64,000 nucleotides of DNA from Ardenticatenales bacterium (lineage in GTDB: Bacteria; Chloroflexota; Anaerolineae; Promineifilales; Promineifilaceae), in NCBI GenBank assembly GCA_020634575.1, contig JACKBM010000012.1:61145-125144 (forward strand). The letters run 5' to 3'. Below are positions 4,567-58,034 of the stretch, one piece after another. The notes under the pieces are model-generated. The model had not been told where the DNA came from. It was given only the letters and a program-made list of their open reading frames with translations, and did not search any database. The stretch's first letter is position 1. Each line of letters begins with the position of its first letter. Position numbers and translations under genes: made by a program.

Positions 4567-6861
4567 ATGCCACGCAAATACCAGTTTTGGTCACTGTTAT
4601 TGGTAATTTGGGTAGCCAGTTGCACTACAACTTACGAGCCAATCCCCACGTTGGCAGTGGCAACCGTTACTGAGCCAGGCAGCCCCGAGCCGCCCCATAC
4701 CCCAACAACAACGCCAACCAGTTCCACCCCACCAACGGCACCTTTGCCAACCGGCACGCGCACACCCGCTGCCGCGGCGACACCGGCCGGTCCCACTAAC
4801 AACATCGCCCTCCTGTCCGGCACCATCGTGCCCACTCCCACCGTTCTGCCGCGCATCACCCCATCACCCACCACCCAGCCACCGCTTAGCTGGACGTTGC
4901 AAGGAGAGATGTTGCCACCGGCCGGTGCCCCCATCACCCCCGCCAACCTGGCCGGCCTCACTCTGCTGGCCCGCTGGGGGCGCGGCGTCATAAACGATGT
5001 CGCCTACTCTCCGGACGGATCGCTGCTGGCCGTCGCCACCACCAGCGGCATCTACCTCCACGACGCCCACGACCTGGCCGCACCACCACGCTGGTTGCGC
5101 ACAGGCCTGGCCGTTGACCAGGTCGTTTTCTCACCCGATGGCACCGAACTCGCTACCATCCTGCACCGGGACAGCATCCAGATCTGGTCGCTGGCCGAGG
5201 CAAAGGTAACGACAACTCTGCCCGGACAGACTAAGGCGATTGAATTTTCTGCGGACGGTCAATTTCTGTTTAGCTACGTTTTCCAGGAGCTGTCTGTCTG
5301 GTCGCTACAGGAAAACCGGAAGCTTACCACCATCCAGAAGTTGTCAGCTTTTGCAGTCAGTCCCGTTGAGCCAGTTTATGCCGTGGTCAACCGCGCCAAT
5401 GCCCAGACAACAGTGAGCCTTTTTGAGACACCTGGCAGAAAACTACTTCGGACAATCGACCTGGGCTGGGATGGTGGCACGTATGATGAAGATGTCGACT
5501 ATCTGGCCTTCTCCCCTGATGGCACCCTTCTGCTCGTCGGTCGTACGGCCCCACTTCACTCGATTGGTGGGCAGGTCGAAGTAGTGCGTGTGGCTGATGG
5601 CGCCTTGCTGTACACCATAGATCCCGTCTGGCCGGAAGCACCAGCCCCGCCCCTCTGCGATTCTGACATGGTAAACATCGAACCCATCCCATTCCCGATC
5701 ATCACGAACATTACCTTCGCGCCGGATGGCCAAACGGCGGCCATTCGCTACGACGATGCCTTTGTGGGTCGCACGGTCACCCACCTGCATCGCGTCGCCG
5801 ACGGCGCTCTTATCCAGGCGTTTCCCGAAGAAACCATGGGGTTGGCCTTTAATCCCACCGGCAGCGTCCTCAGTTTTACTGACACGGGCAAGCTGCAACA
5901 ATGGGCAGGTCAACCGTTCAGCTTGAACAAGACCGTAGGCGGCTACAACCCGGCTTACAGGGGTCTGAAGATGTTTCCGGACGGCGCCATCCTGGCTGCT
6001 GAAGCTGGTCGGGTCGTCCAGCTGTTTAGCACCTTGGACGGCAGCGTGGTCGGTGAATACCCGGACGCCAACCAGATCACCATCGCTGCTGATGGCTCCC
6101 GATTTGCCCTGGCCCATCGCGATGGCCATGTCGAGATGCGTGAGCAGGCCAGTGGGGCTTTGCTGTATCAACTGTCGGCCACCGGAGCTACTGTCAGCAC
6201 AATGGCGCTCAGCCCTGACGGGCGCTACTTCGTGTTGAACAGAGCAGATTGCCAGCATCTGATCCTTGAAGCGGCGACCGGCATGGTCCTGGCCGAGTTG
6301 GAGGCCGTCAGTTTTGATTTCGAAGCTGAGTACGGCGCCAGTCGCCTACAGATCGACAGCCTGATCTTCTCACCAGATAGCCAGCGCGTTGCCGGCACCA
6401 TGAGTTGGCGAGGACATATGGCCATCTGGACTGTGCCAGACGGCGCCATCGAGTATCTGTTCAGCCCGGAGGAAAATGCCGGGGTGAATCTCATCGTCAA
6501 TGTGCCCTCAGCGGACTCGTTTGTGGGGCTGGGGAGCCTGCGCTACTATCGCGACCTTTCCGTTTGGGATTTTGTCAGCGGCAGCCAGCTATCAATGTTT
6601 GATGTTCCTGATTCGCCTTCCTACCATGTGGGGCTTGCAGTCACTAATCAATCTCAGCTCATCGCCGTTTCTACTAACATGGGGCAAATCGATTTCTGGC
6701 ATGAATCTGCCAGCGCCCCCCTCTTCAACCTCATGATCCCTGATTATGCTTTTCGTCCGTTTGCAGCACCTTACGTTTGCGCCATGACCTTCAGGCCTGA
6801 CGATCAATACATGTTTGGCGCCACCAGCGAGGGCATGGTTCTGGTCTGGGGTGTTCCGTGA
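4567..6861 (+). CDS. WD40/PD40-type beta-propeller lipoprotein
   Basis: 764 residues. The signal peptide ends in lipobox VASC with Cys19, so it should be an envelope-anchored lipoprotein. Residues 25-110 are a Thr/Pro-rich linker. The rest is made of WD40-like repeats, each with a strand around FSPDG (YSPDGSLLAVAT, FSPDGTELATI, FSADGQFLFSY, FSPDGTLLLVG, FAPDGQTAAIRY, LSPDGRYFVLN, FSPDSQRVAGT, FRPDDQYMFGA), enough for at least one and perhaps two propellers. Such domains bind proteins or ligands; no enzymatic residue is seen. It is followed 73 bases later by a second propeller lipoprotein, so the two may work as a pair. Confidence 0.8.
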   Translation: MPRKYQFWSLLLVIWVASCTTTYEPIPTLAVATVTEPGSPEPPHTPTTTPTSSTPPTAPLPTGTRTPAAAATPAGPTNNIALLSGTIVPTPTVLPRITPSPTTQPPLSWTLQGEMLPPAGAPITPANLAGLTLLARWGRGVINDVAYSPDGSLLAVATTSGIYLHDAHDLAAPPRWLRTGLAVDQVVFSPDGTELATILHRDSIQIWSLAEAKVTTTLPGQTKAIEFSADGQFLFSYVFQELSVWSLQENRKLTTIQKLSAFAVSPVEPVYAVVNRANAQTTVSLFETPGRKLLRTIDLGWDGGTYDEDVDYLAFSPDGTLLLVGRTAPLHSIGGQVEVVRVADGALLYTIDPVWPEAPAPPLCDSDMVNIEPIPFPIITNITFAPDGQTAAIRYDDAFVGRTVTHLHRVADGALIQAFPEETMGLAFNPTGSVLSFTDTGKLQQWAGQPFSLNKTVGGYNPAYRGLKMFPDGAILAAEAGRVVQLFSTLDGSVVGEYPDANQITIAADGSRFALAHRDGHVEMREQASGALLYQLSATGATVSTMALSPDGRYFVLNRADCQHLILEAATGMVLAELEAVSFDFEAEYGASRLQIDSLIFSPDSQRVAGTMSWRGHMAIWTVPDGAIEYLFSPEENAGVNLIVNVPSADSFVGLGSLRYYRDLSVWDFVSGSQLSMFDVPDSPSYHVGLAVTNQSQLIAVSTNMGQIDFWHESASAPLFNLMIPDYAFRPFAAPYVCAMTFRPDDQYMFGATSEGMVLVWGVP

Positions 6862-6934
6862 CAAGAGTAGGGGGCGAAAAAGCGACAGTCATCTACCTGT
6901 CTTGGAATTTACCTTGCCTGGGTAGCGAATTGCT

Positions 6935-8329
6935 ATGATTAGAGCTACCCAGAAGAGCGTACTTGCTGCCATTCTGTTCCTCATTGGTTGCAGCCCATCT
7001 GTCCCTGCAAATTCGCCCACACCCACATCAGCGGCCCCTGCATATTCGGAGTTGGTCGAACAAACAGAGGAACCGGTCCCGGTACCGACTGCTACCGACA
7101 GAGCAACAGTTGGTCCCGCAGCAACAGCCTCACCCACCTACGAACTGGCTACCCCATTGCCAACTGCAACAAACACCAGCAATGCTCATCCCACCGGGAC
7201 AACAGCGCCAACCGATGAAGCTTTGCCGAGCATCGATTATTTTCTTGATACGCAGCTGCTCGGTGCCTATCAAAGTTTGGCTAGCTTTCTGGCAGTGCTC
7301 AACTGGATATGGCATCCACTTCTAGCTGAACCTATCGAGTTGGTGAGTCAAGTAAGCTATCACTGGAGCGGCTATGGACATCGGCTCATCGCGATAACTG
7401 GCAACGGAGCGAACACAACACGATTCTTGCTTGACCTGAATAGGCACGAGCTTACCGAGCTGACGATTGATGAGAAGTGGGCCATCCCTTTAAGCTGGCG
7501 GCCCTGGGATGTTTCTGCCGATGGACGCATCCTTGTTGGCGAGTATGACGTTTCACCCACCATCCGGCACGTTATTGTCTACGACCGTGAAAACGATGAG
7601 CTTCTACTGGATGTCGAAGCCGGTTTAGTCTGGCAGTTTGTTGGCTGGGCTCATGACGGTAAGCGCTTCGCCTACCTGGCCTCAGCAACACTCAGTTACG
7701 AAGAGGCCGACCCGCAATCGGTGACACGCATCGACATAGTGGATATCAACACCCTTGAAATCAGTAGCATAAGTCGGGCTGCCGATGATGACACATTCTG
7801 GACCCGAGCAAGCTGGTCACCTGTCGACAATAGCCTGGTCGTCATGCGTGAATGGCTGGCAACCTGCAACAGCTATCCGCACTATGGCATGCCCAGCTAT
7901 CGTGTTGCCAGTTTACTTTTGGTTGACCTGGATTCTTCAGAGCGCGAGGTGTTGTTACATCAGGTTGATGGCTGTGAATATGCCGACCAATACTCCATAA
8001 ACAGCCACCCCTGGTCGGCTGATGGACAAAAGATAATCTTCGCATCAGAGGGCCAACTGTGTTGGCTTGACGTTGAAGACAGGCTGACACAATGCCCTGT
8101 CCAACTCAATGAGGCCATCCGGGCTTATCCAGGTATTGATTTAAATGATCCGATTGCAGAGCCGAGCTTTTCACCGGATAACAACTGGATTGCTTTTCTC
8201 ATCAATATCCATCATGAGACTCAAGGCGATCCAATGGCGGCACTGAATTTGGCCAACCTGGAGATCCATGTTGCTGACGAGGTCCTGGCCGTGAGAGGGC
8301 CCACCTGGGCTCCGGCAAATCCGCCCTAG
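6935..8329 (+). CDS. Lipoprotein with TolB/WD40-like repeats
   Basis: 464 residues. The signal peptide has lipobox LIGC (Cys19) and is followed by a Thr/Ala/Pro-rich linker to about residue 95. Repeats with WSADGQKIIFAS, FSPDNNWIAFLI, WAHDGKRFAYLA and WSPVDNSLVVMR are typical PD40/TolB-like propeller strands. The start region is unusual: TATGAT overlaps the ATG itself and could be a -10 hexamer, so translation might begin at a later codon, but only this ATG gives a full signal peptide. It sits directly downstream of the larger propeller lipoprotein. The function is unknown beyond likely surface binding. Confidence 0.75.
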   Translation: MIRATQKSVLAAILFLIGCSPSVPANSPTPTSAAPAYSELVEQTEEPVPVPTATDRATVGPAATASPTYELATPLPTATNTSNAHPTGTTAPTDEALPSIDYFLDTQLLGAYQSLASFLAVLNWIWHPLLAEPIELVSQVSYHWSGYGHRLIAITGNGANTTRFLLDLNRHELTELTIDEKWAIPLSWRPWDVSADGRILVGEYDVSPTIRHVIVYDRENDELLLDVEAGLVWQFVGWAHDGKRFAYLASATLSYEEADPQSVTRIDIVDINTLEISSISRAADDDTFWTRASWSPVDNSLVVMREWLATCNSYPHYGMPSYRVASLLLVDLDSSEREVLLHQVDGCEYADQYSINSHPWSADGQKIIFASEGQLCWLDVEDRLTQCPVQLNEAIRAYPGIDLNDPIAEPSFSPDNNWIAFLINIHHETQGDPMAALNLANLEIHVADEVLAVRGPTWAPANPP

Positions 8330-48162: not shown

Positions 48163-48248
48163 ACGAGTTTCAGCAGTACAGGTCGAAATCAGTTTGTCAT
48201 TGCAGGCACGCTGACAAGGAAAAAGCCGCCAATTGTCGCTGATGATTC

Positions 48249-48286
48249 AAAAAGGTAGGCCAGGGGGTTACCCTGACCTGCCTTTA
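48249..48286 (-). terminator. Terminator-like hairpin between livK' and livH
   Basis: On the minus strand AAAGGCAGGTCAGGG, TAACC and CCCTGGCCTACCTTTTTG form an imperfect 13-bp stem followed by a T-run. This placement, after the binding-protein gene and before the permease genes, is common in liv operons, where it sets a high ratio of binding protein to transporter. Confidence 0.65.
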
Positions 48287-48314
48287 TTTCAACACGCAAA
48301 CCGCAAGTTCGTTT

Positions 48315-49327
48315 TACTCTTCCGGCAGAACAAACGCGCCGTCCGATCTGGAACAGCGAGAAAGAACCACCATTAACCTGGTTATTCTCGTCAAGCTGAT
48401 GGCCAGCCCCAACGGCGTTTCCAGGTCCATGTTGGTCGGCTCAAAATCACGATGAAGTGCGGCTGACGTCGCCGGCATTAACGCAGGTTTTCCGCGCAAG
48501 ACAGCCACATAGGTGCCAGGCTGGCGGCTCGCCGAAGGCGCCAAAATCTCCGAGTACTGCGCTGCTGTTACATTTCGTTTGTGCAGCGCCATCGTCTGAG
48601 ACAGGTTCGGGTCGGCGAGAAGAAGGTGACGTAAGCACCATTGATGGCGTCACCGGCCGAATCAATCAGCCAGCAGCACCGTAACCGGCATATAATAAAT
48701 GCGTCAATAGTTCTGCTCTGCGGCTGCAATAAGTGCTCAACTGACCTTCGATCTGGCCGGCAGAAGAAGACCACATCCGCGCCAGAGGCGATTGCCGCGG
48801 CGATGGACTGGCGTCCGTCTCTTCCTGGGTCACCGGGGCACGCTCCAGCCGAAGCACCACCATCCAGCAGCAGTTCTTCCAGCTGATCGACCGGGCCACC
48901 GCGTGGGAGGATTGATCTTCAGCCAGATACGCCGACGTGATCCCAGCGAATTGAGCATATGATTGGCAGGTGTCTGGCTCTGGTCATCGTCGGTCAGGAA
49001 TTGGCAGGAAAGTGGCCGATGCCGGAACGGTCAGATCAGTGCGCGTACAGGAAGTGGTCACATGGGCCATACCCGCTTCTTCGCAAGGAACCACACGCTG
49101 CGTCGAGGCACAAACCTGCGAACCAGCCGGTCCCACCGCCACCAGGATTTCGGCGTCAGCAGCAAACTGCTCGGCGACGATCCGGCGGTGTCAGGTTGAT
49201 CTCGGTGTAGCTGGCACAATCTCGATGTTGATGCCGGTCTCTGCCGTGAAGATGGCGCAGTCCTTCGGCGAAGCCTAACTGCTCTTCACCAATAAAAAGC
49301 CGCGCCGCGGGCAGCCCCAGGGGGCTC
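48315..49327 (-). pseudogene. Second LivK-type substrate-binding protein, degraded copy
   Basis: The stretch aligns along its whole length with the intact livK at 49286-50638 (for example LFIGEEQLGFAEGL against FIGQEQLGFAQVF; AGQIEGQLST against AGQIEGQLGT; VTQEETDASPS against VTQEETDFSS) but is broken by about fifteen single-base or short indels plus substitutions. The signal peptide and the acidic linker are missing: its 5' end is fused to the 3' end of livK. It is a diverged tandem paralogue rather than an exact duplicate. Confidence 0.8.
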
Positions 49328-50638
49328 GATTTTGATGGTGCCTTCGAAGGCCGGCGCATCACTCATCGCTTCGTCGCCGGCAATCAGGGCAAAGGCGCCA
49401 TCCTGAATCTGGAACAGGGAGAAGGAGCCGCCATTGATCTGGTTGCCCTCACCAAAGCTGACAGCCAGCCCCAGCGGGGTCGTATCCAGGTCAATATTGG
49501 CCAGCGCATCGACCACACAGGCTCGGCTCATGTTATCGGCACATGCTTCAATCGCCTGCAGGGCGATATAGGTCGCGTAACCGGAAGCACCACCAAACGC
49601 ACCAAACTCTTCGCTGTATGCCGAGGCATACGCCTGATTGTAGGGCGCCATCGTCGGGACCAGGTTCGGATCTGGCGCGAAGAAGGTCACATACGTGCCT
49701 TCAGCCGCGTCACCGGCAGTCTCAACCCAACCCAGGGAGAAACCGCCATCTGGCAGGTAGTAGATGCCATCGTAGCTCTGCTCGCGCAGTTGCACCGCCA
49801 GCGTCCCCAGCTGACCTTCAATCTGGCCAGCAAAGAAGACGACGTCGGCACCCGAGGCGATTGCGGCGGTGGCGATGGAGGAAAAGTCTGTCTCTTCCTG
49901 GGTCACCGAAGCACGCTCAACCGAAGCGCCGCCGTCCAGCAGCAACTCTTCCAGTTGATCGACCAGGCCAACCGCATAGGAGGATTGGTCTTCAACCAGG
50001 AAGGCTGAGGTGACACCCAGGGTGTCCAGCATATGGGCCGCTACAGTACGACTCTGATCATCATCGGTCGGGATCGGCCGGAAGAAGGTGGCCGTGCCCG
50101 GATCGGTCAGACCAGTGGCCGTGCAGGATGGGGTGATGTGAGCCAGCCCGGCGTCGGCGAACGTGGGTTGGGTGGCTTCACAGACCTGGGAACCGGCCGG
50201 ACCCACCACAACATAAATGTCCTGGTCAGCCGCAAATTGCTCGGCGACGATCTTGCCCGTATCCGGGTTGATCTCGGTATCCCCTTCGACAATTTCCACA
50301 TTCAAACCGGTGCGCGCGTTAAACTCGTCCACAAACACCTGGGCAAAACCCAGCTGCTCCTGACCGATAAACGCCGCGCCGCCAGTCAACGGACCCATAA
50401 AGCCCAGCTTAATGGGGCCCATCTCTTCAGAAGGCTCCTCAACAGCCTCCTCCGTCGGCTCTTCTGCCGCTGGCTCCTCGGTTGGCTCAGCCATCTCCTC
50501 CTCGTCGGTTGTCTCTTCGGCCGAGACAGCCTCCGTCGGTTCCGGCTCCGCCGTTTCCTCTGCCGGCGCCTCACGACAGGCAGCCATGAAGAGGCTGAGG
50601 AGCAGCATCAGAATAATAAATCGACTCACTTTCGACAT
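49286..50638 (-). CDS. livK: Branched-chain amino acid-type ABC transporter substrate-binding lipoprotein
   Basis: 450 residues. Lipobox MAAC (Cys21), then a Glu/Pro/Thr-rich linker to about residue 73, then a type I periplasmic-binding fold: IKLGFMGPLTGGAAFIGQEQ, VVVGPAGSQVCEATQPTFAD, FFRPIPTDDDQSRTVAAHML, FFAGQIEGQLGTLAVQLREQ. Such proteins capture branched-chain amino acids or other amides and hand them to LivHM. The last residues (PPGAARGAAFYW) are not the natural end but read into the degraded livK copy downstream. AAGGAG-type signal before ATG 50638. Cotranscription with the cupin and AhpD-like genes upstream is plausible (89-base gap). Confidence 0.9.
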   Translation of the reverse strand: MSKVSRFIILMLLLSLFMAACREAPAEETAEPEPTEAVSAEETTDEEEMAEPTEEPAAEEPTEEAVEEPSEEMGPIKLGFMGPLTGGAAFIGQEQLGFAQVFVDEFNARTGLNVEIVEGDTEINPDTGKIVAEQFAADQDIYVVVGPAGSQVCEATQPTFADAGLAHITPSCTATGLTDPGTATFFRPIPTDDDQSRTVAAHMLDTLGVTSAFLVEDQSSYAVGLVDQLEELLLDGGASVERASVTQEETDFSSIATAAIASGADVVFFAGQIEGQLGTLAVQLREQSYDGIYYLPDGGFSLGWVETAGDAAEGTYVTFFAPDPNLVPTMAPYNQAYASAYSEEFGAFGGASGYATYIALQAIEACADNMSRACVVDALANIDLDTTPLGLAVSFGEGNQINGGSFSLFQIQDGAFALIAGDEAMSDAPAFEGTIKIEPPGAARGAAFYW

Positions 50639-50727: not shown

Positions 50728-51180
50728 TCACTCGTCCTTGGGCCGATATTCTGAGGGATAATTAATGATCTTGTCCCACTCGTCGGCCGCGGAGCGAGCC
50801 ACAAAAGCGATAACCTCGTCATCGCCAATGTTAAATACCTCATGCGGCACACCAGACTTGATGTAGATGAAGTCTCCGGCGTGGTTGATGATCTCCTTCG
50901 TCAGACCCTCGCCGTACATGTGCTTCACCGTCCCCTGGAGGATAAACAGCATCACCTCAAAACCATCGTGAATGTGCGCATAAGCGATGGCGCCCGGCGG
51001 CACCCGCGCCACGTTGATGGACAATGCTTCCGAACCCACATTCTTGCCGGACATCCCCTGCTGATACTGGATGCCGTTCCAACCCCGGCCCGGGCCGCCG
51101 CCACGAATCGTGAGGATGCCATCCCCATCTTCAACAACGCTTTGGTCGATAGCGCCTGTACCCTTGGTCTGTTCTTTCAT
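50728..51180 (-). CDS. Cupin-domain protein
   Basis: 150 residues behind AGGAG. The cupin motif 1 region reads VPPGAIAYAHIHDGFEVMLF with the metal-binding His-x-His and a Glu, and motif 2 reads AGDFIYIKSGVPHEVFNIGD with the last His. This is a single-domain, probably metal-binding beta-barrel. Family members range from isomerases and dioxygenases to non-enzymatic binders, so no reaction can be named. It starts 14 bases after the AhpD-like gene, so the two belong to one transcript. Confidence 0.88.
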   Translation of the reverse strand: MKEQTKGTGAIDQSVVEDGDGILTIRGGGPGRGWNGIQYQQGMSGKNVGSEALSINVARVPPGAIAYAHIHDGFEVMLFILQGTVKHMYGEGLTKEIINHAGDFIYIKSGVPHEVFNIGDDEVIAFVARSAADEWDKIINYPSEYRPKDE

Positions 51181-51194
51181 GGTTCAACTCCTGT

Positions 51195-51758
51195 CTAGAT
51201 ATTGCTCATCCCTTCGATTTCCCAAAAATCTTCCAGCTCAACGCCGAGACCATCGACGGTCCGGTTACACCAGGCGAAAAAGCCGGCGATCTGATTAATT
51301 TCCAGAATCGCCTTATCGCCAAAACCGACTTCGCGCAGGCGGACAATCTCCGCTTCAGAGGATTGGGCCGGGGTGAGCGTCACCGTCCGAACGTAATCGA
51401 GCATCGCCCGATCCGCTTCGGATAACGTCGCTTGCCGGTAATCCACTTTCATCTGGTCGACCCACGCCTGATCCGCCACTTCCCTGAGGAGACCCTCCCC
51501 ATGATGCCGTATTCAGTAATGGCATTCGTTCAGCACCGAGACGGTGACGGCAATCATCTCTCGCTGGGCCAGCGTCAGATCACAATCCCCATGCATCAGC
51601 CCATTGTAAAATGTCATCAAGGCTCGCAGAGCCGCCACGTTCAGACTGTGCGCTTTGATGATGTTATCAACGCCGCCCCAGGAACGCTGCGTCCCTTTGT
51701 AGATTTTGCCGACGATGCCGGTTGCTTCGTCTTCTTGAATGGTCTTGATCCAGGCCAT
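51195..51758 (-). CDS. AhpD-like peroxidase-related protein with in-frame TGA (candidate selenoprotein)
   Basis: 187 residues if TGA 51513-51515 is read through. ATG 51758 follows AGGAGG. The frame stays the same on both sides of the TGA: ...LTLAQREMIAVTVSVLNECHY-TGA-IRHHGEGLLREV..., and both halves match the carboxymuconolactone decarboxylase/AhpD-type 'peroxidase-related enzyme' family. The TGA replaces the second Cys of the CxxC redox motif (Cys79-x-x-82), with the catalytic His86 four residues later. A GGU-loop hairpin begins 11 bases after it. In AhpD the second Cys is the reactive thiol, so selenocysteine is attractive; a nonsense mutation or sequencing error is the alternative. Selenoproteins of AhpD-like type are known in bacteria. 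Confidence 0.8.
51485..51501 (-). promoter_or_regulatory. Candidate bacterial SECIS hairpin
   Basis: On the minus strand TGGGGAG-GGT-CTCCTCA folds into a 7-bp stem (one G-U pair) with a three-base loop GGU. The loop starts 18 bases after the TGA, which matches my recollection of the distance and GGU loop of the Escherichia coli fdhF SECIS. It lies in the coding sequence directly after the UGA, as bacterial SECIS elements must. Confidence 0.55.
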
Positions 51759-51793
51759 AAATCGCCTCCTGCCATGAAGGGGCAACTATACCC

Positions 51794-51831: not shown

Positions 51832-53388
51832 ATGACCCTGCGTGCCCACGATTTGCCCCTTCATTACAATGCCGTCGAAATCCTGGAACGGAATCTGACG
51901 GACCGGCCGGATAAGCCCGCCCTCTTCAGTCGCAGCCGCACCCTGACCTTTCGCCAGATAGCCGCCGAAGCCAACCGGGTGGGCAACGCCTTGCTCAGCC
52001 TGGCGGTGCGGCCGGGCGAAACTGTCGCCCTGCTCTGCCTGGACCTGCCGGAATGGGTCACCGTCTTCTTCGGCACACTCAAAATCGGCGCCATTAGCGC
52101 CGGCCTCAACACCCAACTCACAACGGCTGACTACGACTATATCCTGCGTGACTGCCGCGCTCGGGTGCTTGTTCTGCATCACAGCCTGCTGCCGCTGATC
52201 CGGCCCTTGCTCGCTGATCAACCCTTCCTGGAGCATATCGTGATTGTGGGGGGCGCGGATCCGGCCGGTATCAGTTACCAAAACTGGCTGGCAACCGCCA
52301 GCACCGACCTCGCCCCATCCCGCACCCATCGCGAAGATTTCTGCACCCTCAACTATTCCAGCGGCACCACCGGCCAACCCAAAGGCATCCTCCACGCCCA
52401 CAAAGATCTGCCGCTCATCTGCGACTACTGGGGCAAACAAACGCTGGGCTTGCGCGAAAGCGACCGCACCTTCGCCGGCGCCAAGCTGTTTTTCACCTAC
52501 GGCACCGGCGGCAATCTGCTTTTCCCCTTTTATGTGGGCGCTTCAATCGTCCTTTTTGACGGTTCACCGCGAAAAGCAAGTAACCTGCTGGAGATGGTTG
52601 CGGAGTTTCAGCCGACTATCTTTTACAATGCCCCGACCGGTTACGCCATCGCCCTGGCCGACCCTGATTTTGAACAGCGCCACGATCTCAGCTCGGTGCG
52701 TCTCTGCGTCTCCGGCGGGGAGAATTTGCCGGCGCCCATCTGGCAGGCCTGGCTGGAGCGCACCGGCATCCCCATTGTCAATGGTGTTGGCTGTACGGAG
52801 GCGTATCACAACTTTATCTCTAACCGGCCGGATGACATCCGCCCCGGCGCCAGCGGCAAACCCGTACCCGGCTTTGAGCACCGTCTCGTCGATCCCGAGG
52901 GGAATGCAGTGGCCGATGGTGTCCAGGGCACGCTCCACATCAAAAGCGACACCCTCGCCCTGGGCTATCTGCACCAGTACGCGCGCAGCCGCCAGGTTTT
53001 CCTCGGTGAATGGTTTAATACCGGCGACCAGTTTGTGCGCGACGCCGACGGTTATTACTGGCATGCCGGCCGCAGCGACGACCTGCTCAAAGTTGGCGGC
53101 ATCTGGGTCTCGCCGATGGAGGTGGAAAGCACGCTCATCAGCCACCCGGCCGTCGTTGAATGCGCCGTCATCGGCTGGCACAGTGGTGATGGCCTGATCA
53201 AGCCCAAAGCCTTCGTCGTCCTTGCAGCCGGTCAGGCGCCATCGGACACCCTCGCGGCCCAGCTCATCGACCACTGTCGCCAGCAGCTCGCGGCCTACAA
53301 ACGCCCCCGCGCCATCGAATTCGTCGCCGAACTCCCCAAAACCGCCACCGGCAAAATCCAGCGCTTCAAACTGCGGCAATCAGCGTGA
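51832..53388 (+). CDS. Benzoate-CoA ligase family AMP-binding enzyme (possibly anthranilate-CoA ligase)
   Basis: 518 residues. Core motif LNYSSGTTGQPKGILHAHKD, then FFTYGTGGNLLFPFYVGASI and the C-terminal KVGGIWVSPMEVESTLISHP and KTATGKIQRFKLR with the acyl-adenylate Lys. The FFTYGLGN-like segment and the lengths are typical of benzoate-CoA ligases. Because tryptophan 2,3-dioxygenase is the next gene, 2-aminobenzoate (anthranilate), the product of the kynurenine route, is the most attractive substrate; that is inference. No ribosome-binding site is obvious at ATG 51832. Confidence 0.85.
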   Translation: MTLRAHDLPLHYNAVEILERNLTDRPDKPALFSRSRTLTFRQIAAEANRVGNALLSLAVRPGETVALLCLDLPEWVTVFFGTLKIGAISAGLNTQLTTADYDYILRDCRARVLVLHHSLLPLIRPLLADQPFLEHIVIVGGADPAGISYQNWLATASTDLAPSRTHREDFCTLNYSSGTTGQPKGILHAHKDLPLICDYWGKQTLGLRESDRTFAGAKLFFTYGTGGNLLFPFYVGASIVLFDGSPRKASNLLEMVAEFQPTIFYNAPTGYAIALADPDFEQRHDLSSVRLCVSGGENLPAPIWQAWLERTGIPIVNGVGCTEAYHNFISNRPDDIRPGASGKPVPGFEHRLVDPEGNAVADGVQGTLHIKSDTLALGYLHQYARSRQVFLGEWFNTGDQFVRDADGYYWHAGRSDDLLKVGGIWVSPMEVESTLISHPAVVECAVIGWHSGDGLIKPKAFVVLAAGQAPSDTLAAQLIDHCRQQLAAYKRPRAIEFVAELPKTATGKIQRFKLRQSA

Positions 53389-53488: not shown

Positions 53489-54250
53489 ATGTCCGTCTTT
53501 TCCCTTGACCAGTTCAACTACATCGAACACCTGCAACTCGACAACCTGCTCAACGCCCAAAAGCTCATCTCCCCGCACCCAGAGGAAATGCTCTTCGTCA
53601 TCATCCATCAAACCTACGAGCTCTGGTTCAAACAACTCCTGCACGACGGCCGGCGTGTCATCGATCATCTTGAAGCAGACGAGTTGCCTCAGGCCACCTG
53701 GCTGCTGCAGCGTGCCGGCCGAATCCTCCAGGTAGCCGACACCCAGCTAACCGTCCTGGAAATGCTCAGTTGTGCCGATTTTCAGGAGTTTCGCCCCCAT
53801 CTGAAGCAGTCCAGCGGCCTCCAATCACGCCAGTTCCGCGAGTTTGAGATCCTCGGCGGGTTATGCGAAACAGCGGGTGAGAAATATGCCAACTGGGCCG
53901 AACAGCTCTGGCCCGGTATTACGGCGAATGTCGGCCAAACGCTGCACGGCGCCTTCCACGGCGCCATCCAGCGCAGCACCCTCAGCCTGAGTGAGATCTA
54001 CCTGAATCGCTGGCAACATTTCCAACTCTTCGCGCTGTGCGAAGCCTGTCTGGAAATTGACCGCTGGCTGGTCACCTGGCGCCAGAATCACATCAAGATG
54101 GTCATGCGCATGATTGGCGGTTCAGCCCAGGGAACTGGCGGTACCTTTGTGGAAAAATACCTGGAACCCACCACCAAATATCGCTTCTTCCCAGAACTGT
54201 GGGATCTGCGTAATGAGATGACCGTCGCCGGCGGCGGCAAGGTAGCCTGA
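53489..54250 (+). CDS. kynA: Tryptophan 2,3-dioxygenase
   Basis: 253 residues, short end of the family. Motifs: FVIIHQTYELWFKQLLHD (substrate-pocket His and Arg-facing helix), SSGLQSRQFREFEILGG with the carboxylate-binding Arg, and the haem-ligand region NHIKMVMRMIGGSAQGTGGT, YRFFPELWDLRNEM. It opens the indole ring of L-tryptophan to N-formylkynurenine using haem and O2. AGGAG lies upstream of ATG 53489. The TGATG overlap with the following OYE gene shows translational coupling. No kynurenine formamidase or kynureninase lies in the window. Confidence 0.93.
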   Translation: MSVFSLDQFNYIEHLQLDNLLNAQKLISPHPEEMLFVIIHQTYELWFKQLLHDGRRVIDHLEADELPQATWLLQRAGRILQVADTQLTVLEMLSCADFQEFRPHLKQSSGLQSRQFREFEILGGLCETAGEKYANWAEQLWPGITANVGQTLHGAFHGAIQRSTLSLSEIYLNRWQHFQLFALCEACLEIDRWLVTWRQNHIKMVMRMIGGSAQGTGGTFVEKYLEPTTKYRFFPELWDLRNEMTVAGGGKVA

Positions 54251-55910: not shown

Positions 55911-57923
55911 CTACTTCAAATAGCGGTCAAACCAGCGCAAAATGTGCTCTAAACGGACCACGCGCCGGTCGGTCCGGCCCATGCGTGACAGCCCGTGCGG
56001 GCTGTCCGGGAAGCGGACCATCTCCGTCTCCACGCCCAACCGCTTTAAGGCGACATAGATCTGCTCACCCTGCTCGATGGGACAGCGCAAATCCTGCTCA
56101 CTGTGAATGACCAGCGTGGGCGTTTTGGCGTTGGCGATATGCTTTAAAGGCGACTGGCGCCAGTAGTTTTCCAGGTTTTCCCAGGGCGGCTCATCGTCGA
56201 AGGTGATTTCGCGCAGCCAGTTAATGTCGCTGCTGCCGTAGCTGCTCAGCCGGTTGCTGATGCTACGCTGGGTGACGGCGGCCCGGAACTCAGCGGTATG
56301 GCCGATGATCCAGTTCACCATGAAGCCACCGTAGCTCCCGCCAGTGACGCCGCGCCGATCCTCGTCAATGTAGGGCAGCGCCTTGACATAGTTCGCCCAG
56401 GCCATCACATCATCGTAATCAGCTCCACCATGGTCATTCCAGATCGCTTTGGCATGTGCCTCGCCGTAGCCGTAGCCGCCACGCGGGTTGGCGAAGTAGA
56501 CCACGTAGCCATTGGCTGCCAGGAACTCAAATTCATGCATGTAGGCATCAGCGTACTGGCCCAGCGGGCCACCGTGGATCTCCATAATAGAGGGATATTT
56601 CTTGGCTGGGTCGAAACCGGGCGGTTTGAGAATCCAGCCCTGGAGATCGTTTCCGGCCGGTCCCTTAAACCACACCTCCTCCATCTGTCCCAACGTCACC
56701 CGGCGGAAATAGTCACTATTGCTGCGCGACAGCTGGCGTGAGGAGCCATTTGCCACCCCATCCACCAGCTTCTGCGCCTTGATTTCACCCATGCCGGCAA
56801 ATGTTGAATGCCAGTAAACGACACGATCAGCGTCAAGCCCGTAAGCACCCATCATGCCAGGATCACCCAGCACCGTCTGCAAATCATCCCCAGCCAGGCT
56901 GATCGAGTGCAACGTCGTGTTGCCATGTTGGGAGACGGGGAAATAAAGCCGCTGACCGTCTGCCGACCAGAGCGGCGCCGGCGTCACCCCACCGCCTGTG
57001 TCGTTGATGCTGGCGTTGCCCACGTAAAAGTCATGGGCGCCGGTCAGGGAGCGGGCCGGGCCGGAGCCATCAGCCGGGACCACCCAGAGATGATTGTGCT
57101 GCCACCAATCGCCGCGGCCCAGCGAGCCATAGTAGGCAATCATTTGGCCGTCCGGCGAGAATACGGGCTGCGATTTGTTGCCAAAAGGCGCTTCGATCCG
57201 AGTCAACTCGCCACCAGCTGCCGGCATCAAGTAGATGTCATCCCCGCCCGGGTTAAAATCAGGATCCTCGGCCCGATTAGAGACGAAAACAATCTGCTGC
57301 CCGTCTGGCGACCAACGCGGCGAAAATTCATCGAACACGGGGCTCTCGGTCAGTTGCTTCGCCTTGCCCGTCCGGGCATCCACGGTCCAGATGTGCCAGC
57401 GCTCCTCCGGCAAAAAGCCGGCGCCATCATACTTGTAATGAACGCGCTTGATGTGGCGGGCCACAATGCCCAGCTTTTTCTTGCCTTCATCCTTCTCCCG
57501 CTCCAGCACCTCTGCATCCGTCAGACGCACGGAACAGAGCAGGAGGCGACCGTCTGGCGACCAGCTAAACTGGCCAATTGAGCCCTTGATGTCCGTGAGT
57601 GGCCGGGCTTCGCCGCCACCCACAGGGATGAGATAGAGCTGCGCGGGCTTCTCCGCATTGCCCCGGTTGGAAAGAAAGGCCAATGTCCGGCCATCAGGCG
57701 ACCATTCCGGCAGCCCGTCCACCTGGTTGCCGTAGGTAAACTGCCGATTGTGCCGGCCGTTGCTGTCCACCAGCCAGATGTTGGCGAATTTTTTCTCGCT
57801 GGCTTTCTCCACCCAGCCCACCGTATAAGCCGCCTGGCGCCCGTCGGGGGAGAGAGAGGGGCCGGCTACCGGCCGGAGATCATACAGGTCCGCCGCCTGA
57901 GTCACACGTAACCGCTTGCTCAT
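55911..57923 (-). CDS. Prolyl oligopeptidase family (S9) serine peptidase
   Basis: 670 residues. N-terminal PD40/WD40-type propeller with repeated SPDGR motifs (LSPDGRQAAYTV, WSPDGRTLAFLS, WSPDGRLLLCSV, FSPDGQMIAYYG) and a C-terminal alpha/beta hydrolase domain with the nucleophile in VTGGSYGGFMVNW (Ser530), an Asp in HSEQDLRCP, and the His in FPDSPHGLSRMG. This is the acylaminoacyl/dipeptidyl peptidase type, removing short peptides from the N-terminus or cutting small peptides. No signal peptide, so it acts in the cytoplasm. GGAGG is 9 bases before ATG 57923. Confidence 0.92.
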   Translation of the reverse strand: MSKRLRVTQAADLYDLRPVAGPSLSPDGRQAAYTVGWVEKASEKKFANIWLVDSNGRHNRQFTYGNQVDGLPEWSPDGRTLAFLSNRGNAEKPAQLYLIPVGGGEARPLTDIKGSIGQFSWSPDGRLLLCSVRLTDAEVLEREKDEGKKKLGIVARHIKRVHYKYDGAGFLPEERWHIWTVDARTGKAKQLTESPVFDEFSPRWSPDGQQIVFVSNRAEDPDFNPGGDDIYLMPAAGGELTRIEAPFGNKSQPVFSPDGQMIAYYGSLGRGDWWQHNHLWVVPADGSGPARSLTGAHDFYVGNASINDTGGGVTPAPLWSADGQRLYFPVSQHGNTTLHSISLAGDDLQTVLGDPGMMGAYGLDADRVVYWHSTFAGMGEIKAQKLVDGVANGSSRQLSRSNSDYFRRVTLGQMEEVWFKGPAGNDLQGWILKPPGFDPAKKYPSIMEIHGGPLGQYADAYMHEFEFLAANGYVVYFANPRGGYGYGEAHAKAIWNDHGGADYDDVMAWANYVKALPYIDEDRRGVTGGSYGGFMVNWIIGHTAEFRAAVTQRSISNRLSSYGSSDINWLREITFDDEPPWENLENYWRQSPLKHIANAKTPTLVIHSEQDLRCPIEQGEQIYVALKRLGVETEMVRFPDSPHGLSRMGRTDRRVVRLEHILRWFDRYLK

Positions 57924-58034
57924 CGTCATTTTCCTCCAATCTGTAAGGGGCACATTAACAGTTGCCCGATTTTGCTCAACTGTAACCTTTGTGCCTGTTC
58001 CCAGCCAGACTGCTTCTCTATAATGAGCCGGCTT

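Follow-up and report, generated by a model that had tools for sequence, protein, structure and literature searches.

An AhpD-like gene with a conserved in-frame TGA and a SECIS-like hairpin as a well-supported candidate CxxU selenoprotein

The window examined in this study, a 64-kb stretch of DNA analysed as a whole, carries on its minus strand a reading frame of 564 bases that runs from an ATG at 51758 to a TAG at 51195 and whose sole internal stop is a TGA at 51513..51515, exactly as given in the first-pass annotation. When this TGA, codon 82, is read as selenocysteine (Sec, U), the frame (51195..51758, minus strand) becomes the predicted coding sequence of a Sec-containing TIGR01926/COG2128 protein of 187 residues. 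The read-through product contains C79-H-Y-U82 followed by His85-His86, and the claim that the TGA occupies the position of the second Cys of a CxxC motif, with a His four residues on, was found to be accurate. The codon of Cys79, identified from the sequence as the first residue of CxxU, lies at 51522..51524, that of His86, four residues past U82, at 51501..51503, and that of Glu67, 12 residues ahead of Cys79, at 51558..51560 (all minus strand). Across 63 aligned rows, six of which are C-terminal fragments, Glu67, Tyr81, His85 and His86 show little or no variation; His86 is invariant and Glu67 nearly so. An AGGAGG at 51765..51770 (minus strand), 6 nt upstream of the ATG, is a likely ribosome-binding site. 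A SECIS-like hairpin (51485..51501, minus strand), with a stem of 7 bp and the loop GGT at 51492-51494, starts 11 nt past the TGA, and its loop starts 18 nt past it; the earlier description of a hairpin with a GGU loop in this place was likewise correct. A cupin-domain gene with its own AGGAG (50728..51180, minus strand) begins 14 nt past the TAG, and the two genes are probably co-transcribed.

Other genes surround this pair. A benzoate-CoA ligase family protein (TIGR02262, 551 versus 375 bits) is encoded at 51832-53388 on the plus strand, divergently from the selenoprotein gene, and a 253-residue protein resembling tryptophan 2,3-dioxygenase is encoded at 53489-54250, also on the plus strand; the latter is a divergent relative, since it scores 165 bits against an equivalog cut-off of 390.7. 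An S9 peptidase gene is located at 55911-57953, and ARAGORN detected no tRNA genes across the 64 kb. An intact substrate-binding gene (49286-50638) adjoins branched-chain amino acid permease genes on the minus strand that are broken by frame changes between 46400 and 48100, and perhaps between 44200 and 48500. Within this broken cassette, approximately 3 kb from the selenoprotein gene, BPD_transp_2 was found as four separate pieces. A truncated second copy of the end of the substrate-binding gene (48189-48440) and ATPase-like scraps were recognized by eye beside the permeases, and three such pieces had no match in Pfam. The breaks in the cassette reflect either decay or local sequence error.

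The read-through protein matches TIGR01926 (peroxidase-related enzyme) with 141.8 bits compared to a cut-off of 81.8, residues 2-174 aligning to positions 1-174 of the 178-position profile. The match is continuous across the TGA, in agreement with the first-pass annotation, which had reported homology running through the TGA in a single frame. The CMD domain PF02627 also matches, and the cut-off of TIGR00778 (AhpD core domain) is passed (32.1 versus 27.8 bits). NF041238 (AhpD_rel_CFYUT) and NF053654 (GroundWater_YciW) describe (seleno)proteins with a related domain, some of whose members contain Sec according to the model names; the window protein scores far below both cut-offs (49.4 versus 175 bits and 31.8 versus 310 bits, respectively). 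The AlphaFold model is all-helical, with a mean pLDDT of 96.8 and a helix at 80-94 that spans the TGA. Over nearly its whole length, the model shares its fold with experimentally solved proteins of the TIGR01926 type, namely 6k40 (the Deinococcus radiodurans AhpD), 2pfx, 3c1l, 2oyo and 2prr (TM 0.86-0.90), reaching 0.90 with 6k40, to which the sequence also matches at 104 bits; in the alignments, 6k40 and 2pfx carry Cys where the window protein has Sec. The debrominase Bmp8 (6ohi, 6ohj) has a similar fold (TM 0.76-0.79) but only 18-19% identity, and AhpD of Mycobacterium tuberculosis (1gu9) is a weak structural match (TM 0.52, E 0.12).

Of 351 public homologues, the best 120 were compared at the Sec column, which holds Cys in 36, Trp in 39, and Gly, Arg, Leu or Ser in 7; another 34 records begin right past the column, 3 end right before it, and 1 ends five residues earlier. 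The 36 Cys homologues represent the Cys/Sec exchange that the first-pass annotation had proposed to look for in an alignment. The 34 records that begin past the stop split the gene as would be expected if the TGA were a real stop and the downstream part a separate gene, starting for example from GTG 51479. However, the TIGR01926 match covers both parts unbroken, the predicted helix 80-94 crosses the TGA, the Cys homologues are single chains, and Cys79 would be separated from His86, all of which make an arrangement of two proteins very unlikely. The 39 Trp records, taken at face value, would favor decoding of UGA as Trp, or as another standard residue, through a suppressor or a genetic code altered across the whole genome. 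Against this, TGA is the commonest stop among the main genes of the window, ending 15 of 32 (picked by eye, with the cupin gene included) compared to 11 for TAG and 6 for TAA. In addition, the alternative residue at the column is Cys in the homologues counted above, and selA, selB and tRNA-Sec were found in relatives (see below); decoding as a standard residue is therefore extremely improbable. Because the Trp homologues are known here from protein records alone, we infer, rather than observe, that their Trp is most easily explained as the gene callers' code 4 reading of TGA.

Conservation of the TGA was examined at the nucleotide level. A scan of a genome collection yielded seven related loci with 73-77% protein identity, titled Latescibacterota, Gemmatimonadetes or uncultured bacterium, and in all seven codon 82 is TGA and the frame has no other interruption. 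In 16 genomes belonging to the same phylum as G002, a record titled Latescibacterota, a search gave 34 matches, which include these seven loci, and every one of the 34 contains exactly one internal TGA. The 30 matches whose TGA was read, comprising a close group and three more distant groups, have it at C-x-Y-U without exception, and single genomes of this phylum contain up to four TGA-containing matches. Many of the 16 genomes are close kin, so the 34 matches represent far fewer independent events than their number. That a single phylum has TGA in each of its 34 matches is nonetheless the least ordinary observation made here, and it rests on 16 genomes. Unrelated nonsense mutations, which the first-pass annotation had named as evidence against selenocysteine, were looked for in the seven loci and the 30 read places, and none were seen. 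The recurrence of TGA at the same codon in separate public records also argues against a sequencing or assembly error in which TGC or TGT was misread as TGA, making this explanation exceedingly unlikely. A second, distant TGA paralogue (C-V-Y-U, SHAEFLR) occurs in 14 of the 16 genomes (L046, L047, L050-L061), where a different yet equally regular hairpin is found.

In a quick tree of 109 rows, the window protein falls within a set of 15 rows (support 100) consisting of 14 in which the TGA was seen, the window included, and one with Trp. This set is nested in a set of 50 rows that lacks any Cys form (support 88). When the Trp rows are treated as Sec, no fewer than four changes between Sec and Cys are required to explain the tree. 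The tree is weak, with 48 of its 106 inner branches poorly supported and long branches meeting, and the Sec column was included in its construction.

The sequence past the TGA still looks selected. Compared to locus L032, the window gene has a dN of 0.12 and a dS of 1.52 upstream of the TGA (dN/dS about 0.08), and a dN of 0.20 and a dS of 1.38 downstream of it (dN/dS about 0.15). In four of five comparisons dN is higher past the TGA than before it, and in the four comparisons other than L032 dS past the TGA is saturated. Faster evolution of the downstream part, together with the permease cassette broken by frame changes approximately 3 kb away, is what might be expected of a pseudogene whose TGA arose by a simple nonsense mutation amid decaying sequence. 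However, the downstream dN/dS against L032 remains low, the 564-base frame contains no further stop, and the TGA stands at the same codon in all seven related loci and in the 30 read places. The part past the TGA thus appears to evolve faster yet to remain under selection, unlike a dead gene, and a pseudogene is a most unlikely explanation.

The position and shape of the hairpin agree with a published model of bacterial SECIS elements, which specifies a loop of 3-9 nt, a stem of 4-16 bp, a spacing of 16-37 nt, a G within the first two loop positions and a minimum free energy (MFE) of at most -7.5 kcal/mol (PMC13188914). Comparison with a SECIS model had been suggested in the first-pass annotation, and by these rules the hairpin qualifies throughout, with a loop of 3 nt (GGT, G first), a stem of 7 bp, a spacing of 18 nt and an MFE of -8.4 kcal/mol when 22 nt are folded (-13.6 kcal/mol for 45 nt). 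By our own scoring, an equal or better hairpin with G in place follows 126 of the 2144 TGA triplets on both strands of the window. The hairpin alone is therefore near chance and not significant, and its weight rests on its conservation.

Several lines of evidence bear on that conservation. A core of four pairs (columns 16-19/25-28) is paired in all 31 aligned sequences, or 22 of 22 distinct ones; one of these pairs is G-C in 14 and C-G in 8 distinct sequences, and another is G-U or A-U. The outer pairs follow two registers one base apart, which differ by group. Some measures of covariation exceed all 500 shuffles and two of five do not, the shuffles ignoring kinship; pairs changed on both sides and further pair types showed no excess in either register (498, 498, 490 and 500 of 500 shuffles were as high). 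A scan of 176 eleven-codon stretches in 14 genes (the window gene and 13 close ones) placed the minimum of synonymous change at codons 81-91, with 0.15 compared to 0.30 upstream and 0.35 downstream, and when the window gene alone was compared with the others, the minimum lay at codons 72-82, outside the hairpin. A covariance model built on 17 of 30 relatives, with the window omitted, located the hairpin site in the 64 kb with 47.5 bits (E 2.5e-10) compared to 10.7 bits for the next best site, a score to which sequence kinship contributes. Rfam gave nothing at gathering thresholds for the whole window and nothing up to E 5 for 51421-51560.

As a control, Cys-encoding genes were taken from eight plasmid loci among 387 matching records, and L063 was left out because it lacks the second Cys. 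The best stem in the remaining seven genes has 3-5 bp compared to 6-7 bp in the 31 Sec rows, and the mean 22-nt energy is -3.0 compared to -8.6 kcal/mol, with two control genes, L064 (-7.1) and L068 (-6.5), coming near the Sec value. The 45-nt energy does not separate the two groups (-2.6 to -17.4 for Cys rows and -8.1 to -20.2 for Sec rows). This control is rough because the Cys genes are only 24-39% identical.

Genes for Sec synthesis and insertion were found in the genomes of the relatives. All seven genomes containing the related loci have selB, tRNA-Sec and selA over the cut-off, with tRNA-Sec scores of 69.6-70.6 bits, whereas the same searches in 14 control genomes gave selB in 2, tRNA-Sec in 5 and selA in 1. 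Within the set of 16 genomes from the G002 phylum, 14 have selB over the cut-off, the exceptions being G010 and G015, both of which have selA. Four further genomes yielded selA in three (none in G014, at E <= 1e-20) and tRNA-Sec in one (at E <= 1e-8). In addition, selD was over the cut-off in 10 of 11 genomes, missing in G005, and two of the selD genes have a TGA of their own. From these relatives, we infer that the host of the window gene itself would have selABCD. Over 99% of its length, the S9 peptidase encoded in the window shares 100% identity with one from a MAG named 'Anaerolineales bacterium'; the host is thus probably a member of Anaerolineales, an assignment based on one gene. The Sec trait exists in Anaerolineales, since one study describes Sec formate dehydrogenases and Sec-specific translation (elongation) factors in some Anaerolineales single-cell genomes (PMC4959059). 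Among the 120 matches listed for the SelB of a relative, most of which are without a name, none was named Anaerolineales.

Taken together, the conserved TGA, the Cys homologues at the same column, the conserved SECIS-like hairpin, the Sec machinery of the relatives and the selection downstream of the TGA support Sec at the second Cys position of CxxC, as the first-pass annotation had suggested, and codon 82 is almost certainly translated as selenocysteine. The more inclusive explanation, a Sec-decoded AhpD-like redox protein with a SECIS element, also draws on the confident predicted fold and is highly probable. Selenoproteins of this kind are already known, and the earlier remark that AhpD-like and CMD-domain selenoproteins had been described from marine metagenomes is right (PMC2398784, PMC1088965). 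A 2005 study of the Sargasso Sea reports 27 AhpD-like selenoproteins under COG2128 with CXXU (PMC1088965), and the 2008 GOS study reports 299 sequences of AhpD-like 1, also under COG2128 with CxxU (PMC2398784). Reviews from 2022 and 2026 list the family under COG2128 (YciW) and TIGR01926 with CxxU (PMC9312934, PMC13188914). The window protein shares with this family the domain model, the CxxU motif, the Cys homologues and a SECIS element with a G in the apical loop, and no difference of kind was found in the published descriptions by which the two were compared. The window gene is thus a well-supported new copy of an AhpD-like CxxU selenoprotein and not a new family.

These findings have consequences for annotation. 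Standard annotation splits or misreads the gene, the best 120 of 351 relatives including 37 fragments at the Sec codon and 39 records with Trp. A model of this subgroup could mend many records, since the cut-offs of the two matching NCBIfam selenoprotein models are missed. Additionally, with a host that is probably of the order Anaerolineales, the gene places a likely redox selenoprotein beside the Sec formate dehydrogenases and the Sec-specific elongation factors described for this order (PMC4959059).

The proposed product is a small redox protein of AhpD-like type (COG2128/TIGR01926) with an all-helical fold. In its synthesis, the hairpin 11 nt past the TGA would serve as a bacterial SECIS element bound by SelB with Sec-tRNA-Sec. 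In AhpD of M. tuberculosis, a CxxC motif is preceded by a Glu at a distance of 12 residues and followed by a His four residues on. The Glu-Cys-Sec-His spacing of the window protein is one that we take to be the same as that of AhpD Glu118, Cys130, Cys133 and His137. On account of this likeness in spacing, it is proposed that U82 would be the residue attacking a peroxide or disulfide and that Cys79 would resolve it as a selenenylsulfide, which would then be reduced by a thiol donor; Glu67 and His86 may relay protons. The working role would be that of a thiol/selenol peroxidase or disulfide oxidoreductase, and peroxidase or disulfide-reductase chemistry is likely by this analogy. All matches found in the 16 genomes of the G002 phylum use TGA, and it is also conceivable, if improbable, that this expanded Sec group has turned from peroxide chemistry to a different selenol reaction, such as reductive dehalogenation as in the similarly folded Bmp8. 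No literature joining AhpD with a debrominase was found.

The genomic surroundings of the gene vary among relatives. Seven neighbor proteins from the window were compared by tblastn with 37 loci (L001-L007 with flanks of 6 kb, L032-L061 with approximately 1.5 kb), and none of them gave a hit at E <= 1e-6. A scan found no relative of the protein on viral contigs, and therefore nothing points to carriage by phages. The window has a cupin gene beside the selenoprotein gene, whereas in L003 the selenoprotein gene lies between PhyH and TauD dioxygenase genes (5132-5980 and 6627-7433). Frames resembling these L003 flanks were seen by eye beside the selenoprotein gene in L002 and L007.
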